From positions 124,001-188,000 of the forward strand of contig NZ_JADQBZ010000005.1 of NCBI RefSeq assembly GCF_016278365.1: DNA of 64,000 nucleotides, read 5' to 3'. The notes beneath the pieces were generated by a model that was not told the DNA's origin, did not search any database, and saw only the letters and a list, made by a program, of their open reading frames with translations. Position numbers and translations under genes: made by a program. This document shows, piece after piece, positions 909 to 11,731 of the stretch. How positions within the stretch are numbered: position 1 is the first letter of the stretch; every line of letters starts with the position of its first letter. Source of the DNA: Methanolobus sp. (lineage in GTDB: Archaea > Halobacteriota > Methanosarcinia > Methanosarcinales > Methanosarcinaceae).

Positions 909-1697
909 TCATCCATGCTCTATCGGGCTGGATGTTTCCCATTCGACTTCGATGAAATGCTTGAAAATATGGACCTGTTCTTTCCCGTTGTACCAGGTGG
1001 CCGCGATGTTCAGGGGAATACTCTCATCTTTTATGGTGATTATAAGAATCTCCGTGTCATCGACAACAAGTATCCCTCCTTTCAAAGGGTGTGATTTCTC
1101 TGCCTCATATACTCTTACCTCCGCACCCGGGAACTCTTTTTCAATATCACCTATCCAACTTCTATTTCGTGCGGTTAGCTTTACCTTTACTCCCTCTTTG
1201 ATTTTATTCTGAATTGTTTGTTTTATACTGTCCATTATAGGATATACTTCAATAACTCTATTCAGAGGGGTATATGAAGATGCAAATATGATTTCTTTCT
1301 GGGCTGACTCCAGCATCCGGATTATTTTGTCATTGACATTCTTCACGCCGTTGATATTCCATACTGCATCCTCTTCTGCCTGTCCGTCCTCTGCATGATA
1401 TATTTCTTCAAGTTGTTCCAGGGAATAACGGACTGCCTTTTCATAATCTTCTTTCAGCATGTCAATAACCTTGTCAGGGGCTATTGACTTGTAGCGCATC
1501 GGCTTGGTATTCTGGGTCTCGATTATTCCTTTATCTTTGAGCTTGGTGATAACGCCATATACAGCAGAGCGCGGGATACCTGAAAGTGCATGGATATCTG
1601 CTGCAGTTCCGCTTCCATACTGTGTAAGCGCAATAAGCACTTTTGCTTCATAGGAAGTCAGGCCAAGTTGCTGAAGTGACTCTATCAATGCGTTCAT
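909..1697 (-). CDS. TrmB family transcriptional regulator
   Basis: A 262-residue regulator. Residues 5-65 form the winged helix of the TrmB family (LGLTSYEAKVLIAL, then SGIPRSAVYGVITKLKDKGI), the DNA-binding part. Residues about 115-255 resemble the TrmB C-terminal effector domain, beginning NDKIIRMLESAQKEIIFASS. TrmB proteins are archaeal repressors or activators that respond to sugars or other ligands. The gene sits directly behind the RND exporter and its surface-protein partner on the same strand (25-nt gap to the latter), which suggests it controls that operon. A palindrome at 5111-5132 in the operon promoter is the obvious candidate operator. The ligand cannot be read from sequence. Confidence 0.88.
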   Translation of the reverse strand: MNALIESLQQLGLTSYEAKVLIALTQYGSGTAADIHALSGIPRSAVYGVITKLKDKGIIETQNTKPMRYKSIAPDKVIDMLKEDYEKAVRYSLEQLEEIYHAEDGQAEEDAVWNINGVKNVNDKIIRMLESAQKEIIFASSYTPLNRVIEVYPIMDSIKQTIQNKIKEGVKVKLTARNRSWIGDIEKEFPGAEVRVYEAEKSHPLKGGILVVDDTEILIITIKDESIPLNIAATWYNGKEQVHIFKHFIEVEWETSSPIEHG

Positions 1698-1722: not shown

Positions 1723-2808
1723 TTATTTATCATTTCTCTTTTTTTTCTTGGAGATCATATATGCCGGTGTGCCGATAATGCCCACCATGAACAGGAGTCC
1801 GATTATAACGGAAGCATTATCTTTCACTTTTTCTCCTGGGGGAGTGGCAGGCCCGATATCCACAGCCACTTTGAGCCCCTCCGAATACTGGCTTTTGTCG
1901 TGCACATCCTTGTATTTTATTTCACTGCTGATGGAATACGTTTTTGCAGTTGCATCATCTGCGACTTTCATATCAAATGTTGCATTCTTTGATTCGCCGG
2001 GGTACATATCTCCGAGGTAGGCCTGATCGTCTGTGGTAGTGAAAGGGTCCACAACACTTATCCTTGCAATACATTCACGTGCTACCTGATCTCCGGTGTT
2101 GATGTATGTCACCGTAATTCTTTCCTTGTCGCCTGCCTGCAGATCTGCTTCAGTGTTCATCACTTTGAAATAGGACTCTTCCTCAATAACGATCTGCACA
2201 TACATGGTTTGATTCAGATCCTCGTACCAGTAGTAAGTATCACCATACGGAGGAGTGACAGCGGAATCCCTCTGGTGCCTGTAGGATACATCAAGCTGGA
2301 GGTTGTAAGTGCCTGCTTTTGCATTGTCATATATCTCAATGGGGAAAGCTGCGGGTGATGAAAGGGACTTACCTGTACTCAATGAACCCATGAGCAAAGT
2401 ATCAAGCTTTATCTTTATAGGGGCATCCGGGTCAACAACTGAAAGTCTTGCCGTAATGGAGTCTGCCGTTGTGATAGCCCTGTCGGAAAGAAGCTCGTTT
2501 GCCATAAATGATCGGGTAAGGGTTTCACCATACTGGGCAATATCGTCATCTATTTCTTTATCGTTTGCCTCATATCCTGTGATCTGTCCGTCATTCATCA
2601 TATTTACATAAAGGGTGGCTGTTTCCCCTCTCTCGAATACCTTGTCGCATGCGAGGTTTGCCTCCAGGTGAGGGGCTCCATAAACATCGTAGTAATCGCT
2701 TGCAATTTCGGAGACCACTTCCTCGTTTATACCTGCAGATGCTATTTGCATACAACTGAGCAACAGGATTGTGATCGTAAGCAACTTTACATTCTTCATA
2801 GTTATCAT
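1723..2808 (-). CDS. COG1361-type secreted, membrane-anchored surface protein
   Basis: A 361-residue protein with a signal peptide (hydrophobic stretch at residues 8-24, LLTITILLLSCMQIASA), extracellular beta-sandwich repeats, one C-terminal membrane segment (ASVIIGLLFMVGIIGTPAYM) and a basic tail KKKKRNDK. Segments such as RITVTYINTGDQVARECIAR have the look of the CARDB/NEW3-like repeats of the COG1361 family. Its ATG overlaps the stop of the RND exporter, so the two are translationally coupled; an in-frame ATG three codons later is an alternative start. Such proteins are often found next to archaeal RND/MMPL exporters and may act as external adaptors, which is inference from context. Confidence 0.8.
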   Translation of the reverse strand: MITMKNVKLLTITILLLSCMQIASAGINEEVVSEIASDYYDVYGAPHLEANLACDKVFERGETATLYVNMMNDGQITGYEANDKEIDDDIAQYGETLTRSFMANELLSDRAITTADSITARLSVVDPDAPIKIKLDTLLMGSLSTGKSLSSPAAFPIEIYDNAKAGTYNLQLDVSYRHQRDSAVTPPYGDTYYWYEDLNQTMYVQIVIEEESYFKVMNTEADLQAGDKERITVTYINTGDQVARECIARISVVDPFTTTDDQAYLGDMYPGESKNATFDMKVADDATAKTYSISSEIKYKDVHDKSQYSEGLKVAVDIGPATPPGEKVKDNASVIIGLLFMVGIIGTPAYMISKKKKRNDK

Positions 2809-8440: not shown

Positions 8441-9907
8441 ATGTCAGAGGAAAATGAGAGTTCTGTCTTTAATGTGCTTAAAAGGATAGACGACAACATA
8501 TGGGAAGTACCTATAGACTACATGCCGGGAATGCGTGTTCCCGGACGAATATTCGTTTCAGAGCACCTGTTGAGCATTCTGGAAAAAGAAACTATAGACC
8601 AGGTGGCAAACGTTGCCACGTTGCCCGGGATACTGAAATACTCCATGGCAATGCCGGATGCACATCTGGGTTATGGTTTCTCTATAGGGGGAGTTGCTGC
8701 ATTCGATAAGGAGACGGGAGTCATCAGTCCCGGTGGAGTGGGATTTGATATAAACTGTGGTGTGCGTCTCATACGCACCAATCTCTCGGAAAATGATGTT
8801 CGTCCTAAGCTTTCAACACTTCTGGATGATCTATTTGAGGCTATTCCCACTGGTGTAGGTTCCAAGAGTCGCATCAGGGTTTCTGACGCTGAACTGGATG
8901 ATATCTTTGTCAATGGAGTTCAGTGGGCGGTGGACAATGGGTATGGGGTAAAGGCGGATGTTGATAACTGTGAGAGCGCTGGAAAGATACCCGGTGCGGA
9001 TCCCTCCAAAGTAAGTATCAAGGCCCGTAAGCGGGGAAGACCGCAGCTAGGGACACTGGGAAGCGGCAATCATTTTCTGGAAGTGCAATATGTAGATAAG
9101 ATATATGATGAGGAGGCAGCTTCTGCCTTTGGCCTCAGGGAAGGGCAGATCACTTTTATGATCCATTGCGGCTCACGTGGTGCCGGTCATCAGATATGCA
9201 CAGATCATCTGCAGGTGCTGACACAGGCTTCAAGAAAGTACAACATTACTCTGCCTGACAAACAGCTTGCATGTGCTCCTGCACAGTCCCCCGAAGCCCA
9301 GGATTACTTCAAAGCTATGCTATGTGCCGCAAACTATGCCTGGGTGAACAGACATGTGATCATGCACTGGACACGTGAAGTATTCGAAAAGACATTTGCA
9401 GAAGAATTTGGCGATTTGGGTATGGATCTTGTCTATGATGTGGCGCATAACATTGCCAAGCTTGAAGAACATGACGTAGACGGGAGAAAGACCGAAGTGT
9501 ACGTACACCGCAAAGGTGCAACCCGTGCTTTTGCTCCGGGCCATCCTGACCTTCCCGAGGTTTATCGTACCATTGGCCAGCCTGTGATCATCCCCGGGAG
9601 CATGGGCACCGCTTCCTATGTGCTGCGCAGTACAAAGGAGTCAATGGATATCAGCTTTGGAAGCGCATGTCATGGTGCAGGTCGTGTAATGAGCCGCAAG
9701 AGTGCAAAAAGGGATCTACAGGGAGAGCAGATCCGTGAAGAACTAAGCCTGAAAGGTATCCAGGTCCGTGCTTCGCAGCCCTCCCTTATAGCCGAAGAGG
9801 CTCCTGAAGTTTACAAGTCCAGCAGTGAAGTAGTGGACGTTGTGCATGAGCTTGGTATCGCAACAAAGGTTGCAAGACTCCTGCCAATGGGAGTGATCAA
9901 AGGTTAA
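8441..9907 (+). CDS. rtcB: RNA-splicing ligase RtcB
   Basis: A 488-residue RNA ligase that joins 2',3'-cyclic phosphate and 5'-OH ends, needed for ligation of tRNA exons after intron removal and for RNA repair. Active-site residues are all present: D103 and C106 in GVGFDINCGVRL, the Asn-His pair in GSGNHFLE, the His in IHCGSRGAGHQ, the His in VYDVAHNIAKLE that is relevant to metal binding, and the guanylated His in GSACHGAGRVMSR. There is no intein, unlike some archaeal RtcB genes. The start follows GAGGAATAATC. The archease gene lies upstream and a candidate structured RNA lies downstream. Confidence 0.97.
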   Translation: MSEENESSVFNVLKRIDDNIWEVPIDYMPGMRVPGRIFVSEHLLSILEKETIDQVANVATLPGILKYSMAMPDAHLGYGFSIGGVAAFDKETGVISPGGVGFDINCGVRLIRTNLSENDVRPKLSTLLDDLFEAIPTGVGSKSRIRVSDAELDDIFVNGVQWAVDNGYGVKADVDNCESAGKIPGADPSKVSIKARKRGRPQLGTLGSGNHFLEVQYVDKIYDEEAASAFGLREGQITFMIHCGSRGAGHQICTDHLQVLTQASRKYNITLPDKQLACAPAQSPEAQDYFKAMLCAANYAWVNRHVIMHWTREVFEKTFAEEFGDLGMDLVYDVAHNIAKLEEHDVDGRKTEVYVHRKGATRAFAPGHPDLPEVYRTIGQPVIIPGSMGTASYVLRSTKESMDISFGSACHGAGRVMSRKSAKRDLQGEQIREELSLKGIQVRASQPSLIAEEAPEVYKSSSEVVDVVHELGIATKVARLLPMGVIKG

Positions 9908-10007
9908 CGGGCTATAGGGACAATACTTTTTCTTTTTTACTATTTTCACCGGCTGGGGCCAGATTGGCATATCCTGTCTGCAAAGCCGATGCTCTTTGAA
10001 TAGTAAG

Positions 10008-10015
10008 TTTAAAAG
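10008..10015 (+). promoter_or_regulatory. TATA-like box ahead of the 10034-10130 structured element
   Basis: TTTAAAAG at 10008-10015, preceded by purine-containing GTAAG that could serve as BRE. An archaeal promoter here would start transcription about 25 nt downstream, near 10034-10038, which coincides with the first base of the 13-bp stem. No coding frame begins there. Confidence 0.4.
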
Positions 10016-10033
10016 AAGCCACATATTGAGCAA

Positions 10034-10130
10034 TGAGGAAACGAGATGTGTTTGAGGGGATGAATGGTTTTGCTTGGTTACAGTTACTATACCTTTGAAT
10101 ACAGCTACAAGCAGTTTTCTCGTTTCCTCA
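10034..10130 (+). ncRNA. Candidate structured ncRNA closed by a 13-bp perfect stem
   Basis: TGAGGAAACGAGA (10034-10046) is perfectly complementary to TCTCGTTTCCTCA (10118-10130). Nested inside, GCTTG (10072-10076) can pair with CAAGC (10108-10112). The element lies in the 391-nt gap between rtcB and the PUA-protein gene, contains no credible ORF, and begins where the TATA-like box at 10008 predicts transcription to start. It does not match tRNA, 5S, SRP, RNase P or an obvious C/D box RNA. Alternatives are a rare small inverted-repeat element or a complex terminator of rtcB; no target-site duplication is visible. Confidence 0.4.
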
Positions 10131-10298
10131 GGATATAATTGGTCATTATTATATATAAATCTGTTCGATATTCTTTATATACTATTTTTGTTTTTCCCGG
10201 GATGTCTTCTCCCGACTGACCGCTATGAATTTAAGACTTATATTTTATTTATATCACCTATGCAGACAAGCGATAAAAATATTACCCGAGTTCGTATA
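10131..10298 (+). promoter_or_regulatory. AT-rich promoter region of the PUA-protein gene
   Basis: The remainder of the gap has several TATA-like stretches: ATTATATATAAATC near 10146-10160, TTTATATACTAT near 10173-10184, and TTATATTTTATTTATATC near 10239-10256. The last would give a leader of about 25-35 nt before ATG 10299. Which is used cannot be decided by eye. Confidence 0.35.
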
Positions 10299-10733
10299 AT
10301 GGCAGACTTCCAGTTCGGAAAAGGCTGTGGGAAGATTCTTTTCCCGGAAGGTGTCACTTTTAAGTTGTCAAAGACCAAGCGTGTAAGGCAGGTATTTAAC
10401 AATAACAACCATGTCGCAACAGTACGTGCCAGCGACGGCATGTTTACCCTTGGTATGGAGGGTGCACGTTTATTACACGGTCTCTTCCCAATGCCTGAAA
10501 AAAGAGTTGTGGTGTGTGAAGATGCGGTCCCATTCGTCTCCCAGGGAAAGACTGCTTTTGCAAAACATGTAATTGGCATCGATTCCGAAATGAGGGCGGG
10601 TGACGAAGTGATTGTTGTGAATGAATCAGATGACCTGCTTGCAACGGGCCAGCTTCTTTTATCACCTGGAGAGATCATTGTTCTTGACAGGGGAATGGCC
10701 GTTGATGTCAGAAGGGGCAGGGACCAGGCATAA
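10299..10733 (+). CDS. PUA domain protein
   Basis: A 144-residue protein from ATG 10299 (MADFQFGKGCGKILFPEG); the longer upstream frame has no homology and crosses AT-rich promoter sequence. Residues about 60-140 form a PUA RNA-binding domain, with VVVCEDAVPFVSQGKTAFAK and AGDEVIVVNESDDLLATGQ as the typical strands. The N-terminal part matches the region found before PUA in archaeal tRNA-guanine transglycosylase-related proteins. It probably binds structured RNA such as tRNA, but no catalytic domain is present. The candidate ncRNA upstream is an interesting but unproven neighbour. Confidence 0.8.
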   Translation: MADFQFGKGCGKILFPEGVTFKLSKTKRVRQVFNNNNHVATVRASDGMFTLGMEGARLLHGLFPMPEKRVVVCEDAVPFVSQGKTAFAKHVIGIDSEMRAGDEVIVVNESDDLLATGQLLLSPGEIIVLDRGMAVDVRRGRDQA

Positions 10734-10810: not shown

Positions 10811-11731
10811 ATGACCCCGACAGAATCAAGCCAGTCTCCGGAACGCGAGAACATAGAAGAGGATGTTTTTAAGACATTCGTGGTTCCTGATAAGACCAGA
10901 ATGGAAGAGCACACCATCGTAGTAGACGGGGATGTGATCGTAGGTAATCATTCCGATATCAGGTATGGCATAATATCCAATTCCTCTATACTAGGAGAGA
11001 GGGTAGAGGTAGCGGGAGACCTGATTTCCAGGTCCGATGTGAGGGTTGATATCTGGTCTCGTATAGGAGGTAATCTCAAAACCGATACCAATGCCTATAT
11101 CGGTGAGTTTGTCACTATAGAGGGCAAGCTAGTGGTAAAAGGGGACCTTGATGTTGGTAATGATGTCAAGATCAACGGAGGTTTTGAGGCTAAAGGCTGG
11201 ATCGTGGTGCGTAATCCTGTACCTGTTATTGTCTATCTTTATCTTTACATTAGTGAGTTGTTACGGCTTGGCAAGGACGAGCAAGTGGAAAAAGCCCTGA
11301 GCGAATTGTTCGAGGATGATAAGGAGACTGTCAGCATCAATAGCATGATCATTCCAAATGGCTCCAAGATATCGATGGATTCCATCAGGGTGCCATCAAA
11401 AGCTCTTATCGGGAGTGGTTGCAGGCTGGTAGGTAATATCCGCGCAACTTCTCTTGAAATGGCAAATGATACAATTCTTTATGGCAGCATCCGCACTATC
11501 CATGACGTTATGCTGGGCAGAAATAATATAATCCATGGAAATATCGTTTCAAGAGGTAATGTGTACATCAGTGAAAAGACCCATGTGCTGGGTGAGATCA
11601 ATGCACAGACCATTAAGATACACGAGAGCGCCCGCGTAGACGGTATTATGCGTGCTTCCGGTGGTATCGTGTTCGAACGGGAAGATGAAAAAGTTCTCAA
11701 TGAAAAACAATTGATGCAACTTAATATTTGA
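10811..11731 (+). CDS. Polymer-forming cytoskeletal (bactofilin-like) beta-helix protein
   Basis: A 306-residue protein made largely of hexapeptide-like strands with regularly spaced Gly, Ile and Val, as in VVDGDVIVGNHSDIRYGIIS and GNNIIHGN-type segments, predicting two right-handed beta-helix blocks (about residues 35-130 and 180-295) joined by a helical linker near residues 150-175. Archaeal proteins of this kind are annotated as polymer-forming cytoskeletal proteins related to bactofilins (DUF583). No membrane segment is present, so it is cytoplasmic or peripheral. An 11-bp palindrome precedes the start. The gene for a small membrane protein follows after 53 nt and could supply a membrane anchor. 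Confidence 0.75.
   Translation: MTPTESSQSPERENIEEDVFKTFVVPDKTRMEEHTIVVDGDVIVGNHSDIRYGIISNSSILGERVEVAGDLISRSDVRVDIWSRIGGNLKTDTNAYIGEFVTIEGKLVVKGDLDVGNDVKINGGFEAKGWIVVRNPVPVIVYLYLYISELLRLGKDEQVEKALSELFEDDKETVSINSMIIPNGSKISMDSIRVPSKALIGSGCRLVGNIRATSLEMANDTILYGSIRTIHDVMLGRNNIIHGNIVSRGNVYISEKTHVLGEINAQTIKIHESARVDGIMRASGGIVFEREDEKVLNEKQLMQLNI

Follow-up and report, generated by a model that had tools for sequence, protein, structure and literature searches.

The element at positions 10034 to 10130 of the window (the whole 64,000-nucleotide stretch of DNA that was analyzed) is, with a probability that we put at roughly 0.83, the gene of a dedicated trans-acting antisense small RNA (sRNA) that is encoded on the minus strand and would control translation of the mRNA for a putative winged-helix regulator. 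Sequence comparison strongly supports pairing of the sRNA loop with the leader of this target mRNA. As judged from its sequence, the RNA is a trans-encoded antisense sRNA that is distinguished by its dedicated target, by the duplicated hairpins that present the target site, and by compensatory coevolution across families. It also appears likely that coevolution of loop and leader has maintained this one-sRNA, one-mRNA pair throughout an archaeal order, and possibly a class, while the stems, position, and architecture changed almost completely, and that both members disappeared together in presumed Methanosarcina and in certain other genera. Loop and leader that have changed together in this way point to an old, dedicated RNA switch.

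A predicted sRNA gene on the minus strand between rtcB and a PUA-domain gene

The element is flanked, as a sequence-only reading of this DNA had proposed, by rtcB (PF01139, E 5e-183) and by a gene for a protein with TGT_C2 and PUA domains. The perfect 13-bp inverted repeat described in that reading (10034-10046 and 10118-10130, with 71 nt between the arms) is the sole inverted repeat of at least 12 bp in positions 9700-10500. The features of the locus are as follows.

10160..10167, minus strand: BRE-like element CGAACAGA, kept as CRAACA immediately upstream of the TATA box
10150..10159, minus strand: TATA box TTTATATATA, centred ~25 nt upstream of the predicted start; invariant across the 25 same-genus genomes
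10034..10130, minus strand: predicted sRNA gene (closing stem and interior); covariance-model match of 110.7 bits, E 3.7e-21; single copy
10118..10130, minus strand: 5' arm of the closing stem, TGAGGAAACGAGA; 97% of cells paired
10108..10112, minus strand: 5' half of the inner hairpin, GCTTG; conserved in 32-34 of 35 sequences with no covariation; absent in Methanohalophilus
10072..10076, minus strand: 3' half of the inner hairpin, CAAGC, partner of GCTTG at 10108..10112
10053..10067, minus strand: antisense loop CCAUUCAUCCCCUCA, 15 nt, perfectly complementary to a target-leader loop
10034..10046, minus strand: 3' arm of the closing stem, TCTCGTTTCCTCA, which pairs with 10118..10130
10011..10018, minus strand: T-rich stretch after the stem, CTTCTTTT; possible termination region that overlaps the plus-strand TATA-like site

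The suggestion that this region encodes an independent structured small RNA finds good support in its own promoter, its compensated stem, its single copy, and its lack of an ORF, but the strand originally proposed was wrong. The plus-strand TATA-like sequence TTTAAAAG at 10008-10015 is not conserved in 25 close relatives, and on the minus strand it is the T-rich stretch that follows the stem. The start of transcription had accordingly been misplaced at about 10034-10038 on the plus strand; the conserved BRE and TATA elements at 10150-10167 are on the minus strand and point at 10130, and thus predict transcription from ~10130 towards 10030. In an oriented alignment of the 25 same-genus genomes, this minus-strand promoter, RAACA-n-TTTATATATAATAAT, is the strongest conservation outside the RNA and is invariant in 25 of 25. 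Equivalent TATA boxes are present upstream of the sRNA stem in other genera. We infer from these elements that the sRNA is transcribed and, as far as sequence can tell, that it is its own transcription unit, separate from its target. The predicted 5' end, placed by promoter distance, is at ~10130, the first base of the stem. The transcript probably extends to ~10011, with a predicted size of roughly 100-120 nt, and its termination may take place at the T-rich stretch at 10011..10018; T-rich tails are found 3' of the stem in many relatives. On the plus strand, a TATA-like sequence (TTTATATAC) at window positions 10173-10182 faces the PUA gene ~15-20 bp from the sRNA promoter, and the two promoters diverge out of one common short region.

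No reading frame is kept in the element, which ranges from ~80 to 104 nt among relatives with frame-breaking indels, in agreement with the earlier statement that it contains no ORF. A small plus-strand peptide (ATG AAT GGT TTT ...) was rejected because an indel in GGTTTTGC/GGTTTGC breaks the frame between genera, and a plus-strand transcript was rejected because its promoter is not conserved.

The fold is more stable than dinucleotide shuffles (z of -3.8 for the plus strand and -4.6 for the minus strand; 0 of 200 shuffles were equally stable). The compensatory stem changes that had been suggested as a check are found in relatives: five pairs of the closing stem are changed on both sides, with 14 cells showing two-sided change versus 2.9 in shuffles, and the fraction of paired cells given above compares with 39-58% in slid controls. 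The second, 5-bp stem noted in the interior is the inner hairpin GCTTG/CAAGC, which is conserved without covarying. Conservation in the sRNA is highest not in a helix but in the loop AAMCCAUUCAUCCCCUCA, and the antisense loop is invariant in all related sRNAs of the home family, apart from the compensated changes described below. The element matches no Rfam family, either at threshold or convincingly below it, in keeping with the earlier reading. When the whole window, a 401-bp region at a relaxed E-value, and seven related loci were compared with Rfam 15 (including C/D and H/ACA guides, SRP, and RNase P), tRNA alone reached its curated threshold.

In the home family (f1; 112 genomes), BLAST and the covariance model place the sRNA in 65 genomes, from Methanolobus, Methanococcoides, Methanohalophilus, Methanomethylovorans, Methanosalsum, Methanohalobium, and ANME-3. 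This count leaves out a BLAST match in genome G045 and includes genome G086. The G045 match and a covariance-model match in G134 (locus L253) were judged to be chance because the loop is absent or different and because a proper f2-type RNA is found elsewhere in G134. The sRNA is single copy in its own genome, in all same-genus genomes, and across eight f1 genera, and the scattered copies that had been named as the mark of a mobile inverted-repeat element were not seen. Although an inverted repeat downstream of rtcB might be taken for such an element, or for a bidirectional terminator between convergent genes, both are refuted by the presence of one copy per genome and by an interior that is more conserved than the arms, and no terminator-like site was found; we regard this explanation as hardly credible.

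The sRNA sits between rtcB and the PUA gene in f1 wherever the contig extends far enough. This conserved position would fit the earlier model of a plus-strand RNA, possibly circularized, that serves RtcB or the PUA protein. However, the plus-strand promoter is not conserved while the minus-strand promoter is invariant, and homologous RNAs in three other families (f2, f3, and f5) lie elsewhere, not near rtcB, archease, or PUA genes. We consider that model very improbable: the linkage is a feature of f1 only, and the suggested relation to the neighboring RNA proteins found no support. A role of the sRNA with RtcB or PUA is not supported, and we do not classify it as an RtcB-linked (Y RNA-like) RNA, since linkage to rtcB is found within f1 and not in f2, f3, or f5. 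Downstream of the PUA gene, at window positions 10811-11731, is a gene for a bactofilin-type polymer-forming protein, and this synteny is kept across the family.

Complementary hairpins in the leader of a distant gene

A search of the 112 f1 genomes for CCATTCATCCCCTCA found it in 66, typically at two places, the sRNA and the leader described here, while a reversed-pattern control gave 0 matches in the 112 genomes. At the second place the match has the opposite orientation and lies, a few solo hairpins aside, in the 5' leader of one and the same gene in all genomes read. The leader motif does not behave as a widespread element, with no other consistent place in f1 genomes, and five matches in viral contigs, which have neither hairpin nor gene, were dismissed as chance. 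In the genome of origin, the target site (G000:C3:214299-214313) lies outside the window, ~80 kb from the sRNA, and is a perfect complement of the loop. A second leader site (214265-214279), 34 nt upstream of the first copy, has one mismatch.

In most genomes the leader carries a tandem pair of hairpins that fit the pattern NNCCAU-nn-UCUGAGGGGAU-nA-AUGGNN. Arm sequences are not the same in the first and second hairpin and vary in a coordinated manner (e.g., CCAU/AUGG and CCGU/ACGG), with an invariant core, UCUGAGGGGAU. In f1 and f3, ~20-25 nt separate the start codon from the end of the gene-proximal site, and a GAGG Shine-Dalgarno (SD) sequence is present between the second site and the ATG. 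Folding models of the leader show AUCU and GGAU paired, with GAGG as the loop. Within UCUGAG, the C mismatches the f1 sRNA and is nevertheless conserved; it may be kept because, as folding suggests, it pairs inside the leader hairpin. A K-turn or K-loop reading of the hairpin (CUGA...GAUGA) was discarded because the GAUGA part varies (GATAA, GATAT, and GATGG).

The target gene encodes a protein of 240-390 amino acids that begins with a short domain (MKVRLEI..DDG), continues with a Q/P-rich linker, and ends with a C-terminal domain, ERLELFLKYEYPRVWFTSQDIQ.HYERIYG.IKLSTVSTYLSRMYRK.LLERRGNRTQREYRY, of winged-helix-like appearance. Weak Pfam matches to Penicillinase_R were obtained for 11 of 16 members (best E, 0.0003), with the member from the genome of origin missing the cut-off (E 0.021), and a PDB search with the protein profile gave no match; DNA binding by the target protein is therefore stated here as an inference. 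The protein is probably a winged-helix DNA-binding regulator, and its family is present in 171 of 238 genomes of the class. In f3 the homologues (L210-L220) are built differently, with the short N-terminal domain repeated two or more times and without the Q/P-rich linker.

The sRNA and the winged-helix gene occur together in 63 of the 112 f1 genomes, and neither is found in 45. The exceptions are two genomes with the sRNA alone (60% and 83% complete) and two genomes of genus g12 with leader and gene in which no sRNA was detected (75% and 76% complete). Groups that lack both include the large-genome genus g23, which we take to be Methanosarcina, as well as g14, g15, g16, and g18. The covariance model (R1) gave no match in g23, and none of 39 named records carrying the loop is from Methanosarcina.

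A different arrangement would be that the leader hairpins, in the mRNA and as solo hairpins, act as a sponge on an sRNA whose main task lies with other mRNAs. The extra motif hairpins in Methanohalobium (L107) and in one Methanosalsum genome (L111) are in its favor, as is a 14-nt complement at the ftsZ start of the genome of origin. Against it, one leader alone matches consistently across genomes, the loops are at a fixed place before the start codon, and the sRNA and target gene are lost together; we think a sponge improbable as the main function and favor control of the winged-helix mRNA by the sRNA over the reverse. The ftsZ site (GTGAGGGGATGAATGTGC; G000:C7:126830-126844, L120 positions 1501-1515, minus strand) is perfectly complementary to the sRNA loop over those 14 nt and spans SD-like bases and the start codon, and it is possibly a second target or a chance match. 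The L111 site (positions 2040-2100) is in G088, a Methanosalsum-like genome, and is a separate, TATA-preceded RNA gene whose 13-bp stem encloses the complementary motif GAGGGGATGAATGG in a loop; it looks like an anti-sRNA or sponge. The L107 site (positions 2035-2070, minus strand, in G068) is downstream of a gene; it is a hairpin that bears the leader motif in the loop, and T residues come after it. A site of this type was also found by pattern search at one place in G069, and both genomes are Methanohalobium-like. In many Methanolobus genomes there is a second conserved TCTGAGGGGATCGTTGG outside the target leader (e.g., G001:C1:1434314 and G019:C1:428776), which is probably coding sequence.

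Joint changes of loop and leader across families

The families f2, f3, and f5 are, on our assumption from known taxonomy, ANME-2 and Methanoperedens-like families. In f3, another family of the order, covariance-model matches are individually weak (E 0.002-0.05), and the case for f3 therefore rests on the common loop, the common arrangement, and the matched leader. All 13 of the f3 loci read have a closing stem that is unrelated in sequence (e.g., ATGGAATTCGGGA with TTCCGAATTCCAT) together with the loop CCAUCCAUCCCCUCA, and the f3 target leader, UCUGAGGGGAUGGAUGG, is the perfect complement of this altered loop. Compensatory changes in trans are thus seen in f3 (sRNA CCAUCCAUCCCCUCA with leader UGAGGGGAUGGAUGG), in genome G086 within f1 (sRNA loop CCGUUCAUCCCCUCAGA with leader site UCUGAGGGGAUGAACGG), and in f2 and f5 (sRNA CCCCUCCGAU with leader AUCGGAGGGG). 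The joint changes are of the types U-A to C-G and A-U to C-G. For example, in f2 and f5 the base after CCCCUC is C where f1 has A, and the leader base is G in place of U.

The target gene is present in all f2 and f5 genomes tested. The f2 leaders have AUCGGAGGGGAUGGAAUAC plus UCUGAGGGGAU in a hairpin with a wholly different stem (CCGC/GCGG), and the f5 leaders carry CAUCGGAGGGGA. A search for the complement revealed a compact RNA in both families, with an outer stem GGGGC/GCCCC, an inner stem CGGCAUCG/CGAUCCG or CAUCG/CGAUG, and a 13-nt loop, UAUCCAUCCCCUC or CAUCCAUCCCCUC. This RNA is at one place in 14 of 17 f2 and in 8 of 8 f5 genomes; the f2 count leaves out two further matches that are the leader itself read from the other strand. 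In a separate screen of f2 with CCATCCCCTC, most matches look unrelated, having no closing stem, and two revealed the f2 sRNA.

The longest perfect pairing between loop and cognate leader averages 16.5 nt in f1, 16.2 nt in f3, 14.4 nt in f2, and 13.1 nt in f5, with a range of 11-19 contiguous pairs, while most cross-family pairings are 7.5-12 nt. The exceptions to this specificity involve the f5 sRNA, which pairs over 15.4 nt with f2 leaders and 13.0 nt with f3 leaders, versus 13.1 nt with its own; the cross-pairing with f2 leaders is explained by the nearly identical loops of f2 and f5. The G+C-rich loop explains why duplex energies in f2 are only weakly better than those of shuffles (z of -0.3 to -3.6). 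Outside the main target, at L338, L340, and L332, other sites resemble the leader and are complementary to the f5 loop (TTGGAGGGGATGGATAATGC; ATCGGAGGGGATGGAAAC), and f5 may therefore have more targets. In some f3 genomes a single loop sequence is shared by two distinct sRNA genes (L243/L246 in G145 and L245/L250 in G147), which indicates that the sRNA was duplicated there.

The leader loop could also be a protein-binding or ribosome-standby element, with the sRNA merely competing with the protein or ribosome. This explanation, which we judge unlikely but partly compatible with pairing to a dedicated sRNA, would account for a core (UCUGAGGGGAU) that is kept where sRNA pairing does not need it and for a hairpin stem that changes completely (CCAU/AUGG to CCGC/GCGG in f2). 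However, the changes outside the core follow the sRNA rather than a fixed protein site (f3 and G086), and the winged-helix gene of family f7 lacks the motif. Seven leaders of the winged-helix gene in f7 are without it, and the target gene is therefore older than its control, or the control was lost in f7. The single f6 leader read has GAGGGGAUGGAUAG. The sequence GAGGGGATGGATAG in this leader (L348, of a winged-helix homologue; f6 belongs to another order) suggests that the sRNA-leader pair may reach beyond the order.

Predicted mode of action and relation to known sRNAs

In the proposed mechanism, the terminal stem of the sRNA would close a loop that presents CCAUUCAUCCCCUCA, and this loop would pair with one or two of the leader hairpin loops (core UCUGAGGGGAU) of the distant mRNA. 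The sRNA's CCCCUC and the leader's GAGG loop would probably make the first contact. The sRNA would then invade the 3' arm of the leader hairpin and displace the 5' arm, giving 11-19 pairs; at site 1 of many genomes, AACCAU of the sRNA is a copy of this 5' arm. Where the leader has two loops, one mRNA could hold two sRNA molecules. Loop-loop antisense RNA pairs, such as those of bacterial plasmid copy-number systems, also start contact through complementary loops, but plasmid-type pairs are opposite strands of one locus, whereas the two genes described here are unlinked and covary across families.

An sRNA bound at the nearest site would obstruct the initiating ribosome in f1 and f3, where the duplex ends ~20-25 nt before the start codon, and repression of translation is therefore the expected outcome. 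Repression is probably the direction of control. Modelled accessibility of the SD and start codon with the sites blocked showed no consistent change, so we have not derived the direction from structure. The leader core GAGGGGAU, one mismatch short of a 16S anti-SD match, might also serve for ribosome standby and be blocked by the sRNA. If the same RNA pair worked as an activator, sRNA binding would stabilize the winged-helix mRNA or open it for translation, and the pairing evidence would fit equally. The sites are outside the SD, modelled binding raises SD accessibility in some leaders (L099, L104, L110, and L210), and sRNA154 provides a precedent, having been proposed to act in this way on nifH and nrpA mRNAs (PMC5867862). 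On the other hand, most models of the unbound leader already leave the SD fairly accessible, the modelled change is inconsistent, and in f1 and f3 the nearest site directly adjoins the initiation region. Activation or mRNA protection is a serious alternative, though the less likely one.

We found neither this RNA nor its target gene, nor the two as a pair, described in open-access papers, and on that basis the RNA is a previously undescribed sRNA of methane-cycling archaea. Most similar is sRNA162 of Methanosarcina mazei: it pairs with the mRNA of a transcription factor, and repression of that mRNA's translation has been proposed (Jaeger et al. 2012, PMC3510493). Both are trans-acting methanogen sRNAs in which a single-stranded region pairs with the mRNA for a regulator. 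sRNA162 is 191 nt long, has three stem-loops, and is found in M. mazei, M. acetivorans, and M. barkeri only; its linker is its most variable part and its target is an ArsR-family gene inside an operon (PMC3510493). In contrast, the antisense loop is the most conserved part of the sRNA described here, the target is of a different family, hairpins of the leader hold the sites, and at least four families, rather than three species, have the pair. The 39-nt linker of sRNA162/171 lies between the second and third of three stem-loops, whereas the present RNA is modelled with one closing stem and an inner hairpin. We therefore do not assign it to sRNA162/171.

sRNA154 of Methanosarcina is likewise a structured RNA whose loops pair with the mRNA for a regulator. 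It pairs with several mRNAs, including that of the transcriptional activator nrpA, can stabilize or block, is nitrogen regulated, and is reportedly highly conserved within Methanosarcina (Prasse et al., reviewed in PMC5867862). Unlike sRNA154, the present RNA has one consistent target, and its model has no match in presumed Methanosarcina (g23). sRNA41 of M. mazei has been proposed to mask ribosome-binding sites and targets ACDS operons at several such sites (PMC5867862). The hindrance proposed here would likewise affect translation initiation, but it involves dedicated leader hairpins, and none are described for sRNA41 in that review.

The experimentally studied trans-acting methanogen sRNAs in the literature that we found are from Methanosarcina only, with targets inferred one by one. 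If our reading is true, the present case would be the most deeply conserved archaeal trans-acting sRNA-target pair known to us, and the sRNA would control a class-wide regulator of methanogens and ANME archaea. Part of the control of an uncharacterized winged-helix regulator that is common to many methanogens and methane-oxidizing archaea would thereby be explained. Since the compensatory changes lie in two unlinked genes in several lineages, they amount to built-in evidence for pairing and make the action of an archaeal sRNA directly testable. Presumed Methanosarcina seemingly lacks both parts, and its genetic systems would, if so, provide a clean test host. In Methanolobus psychrophilus, differential RNA sequencing (dRNA-seq) has mapped 195 intergenic sRNA starts (PMC5378194), and the transcript may already be present, uncharacterized, among the supplementary data of that study.
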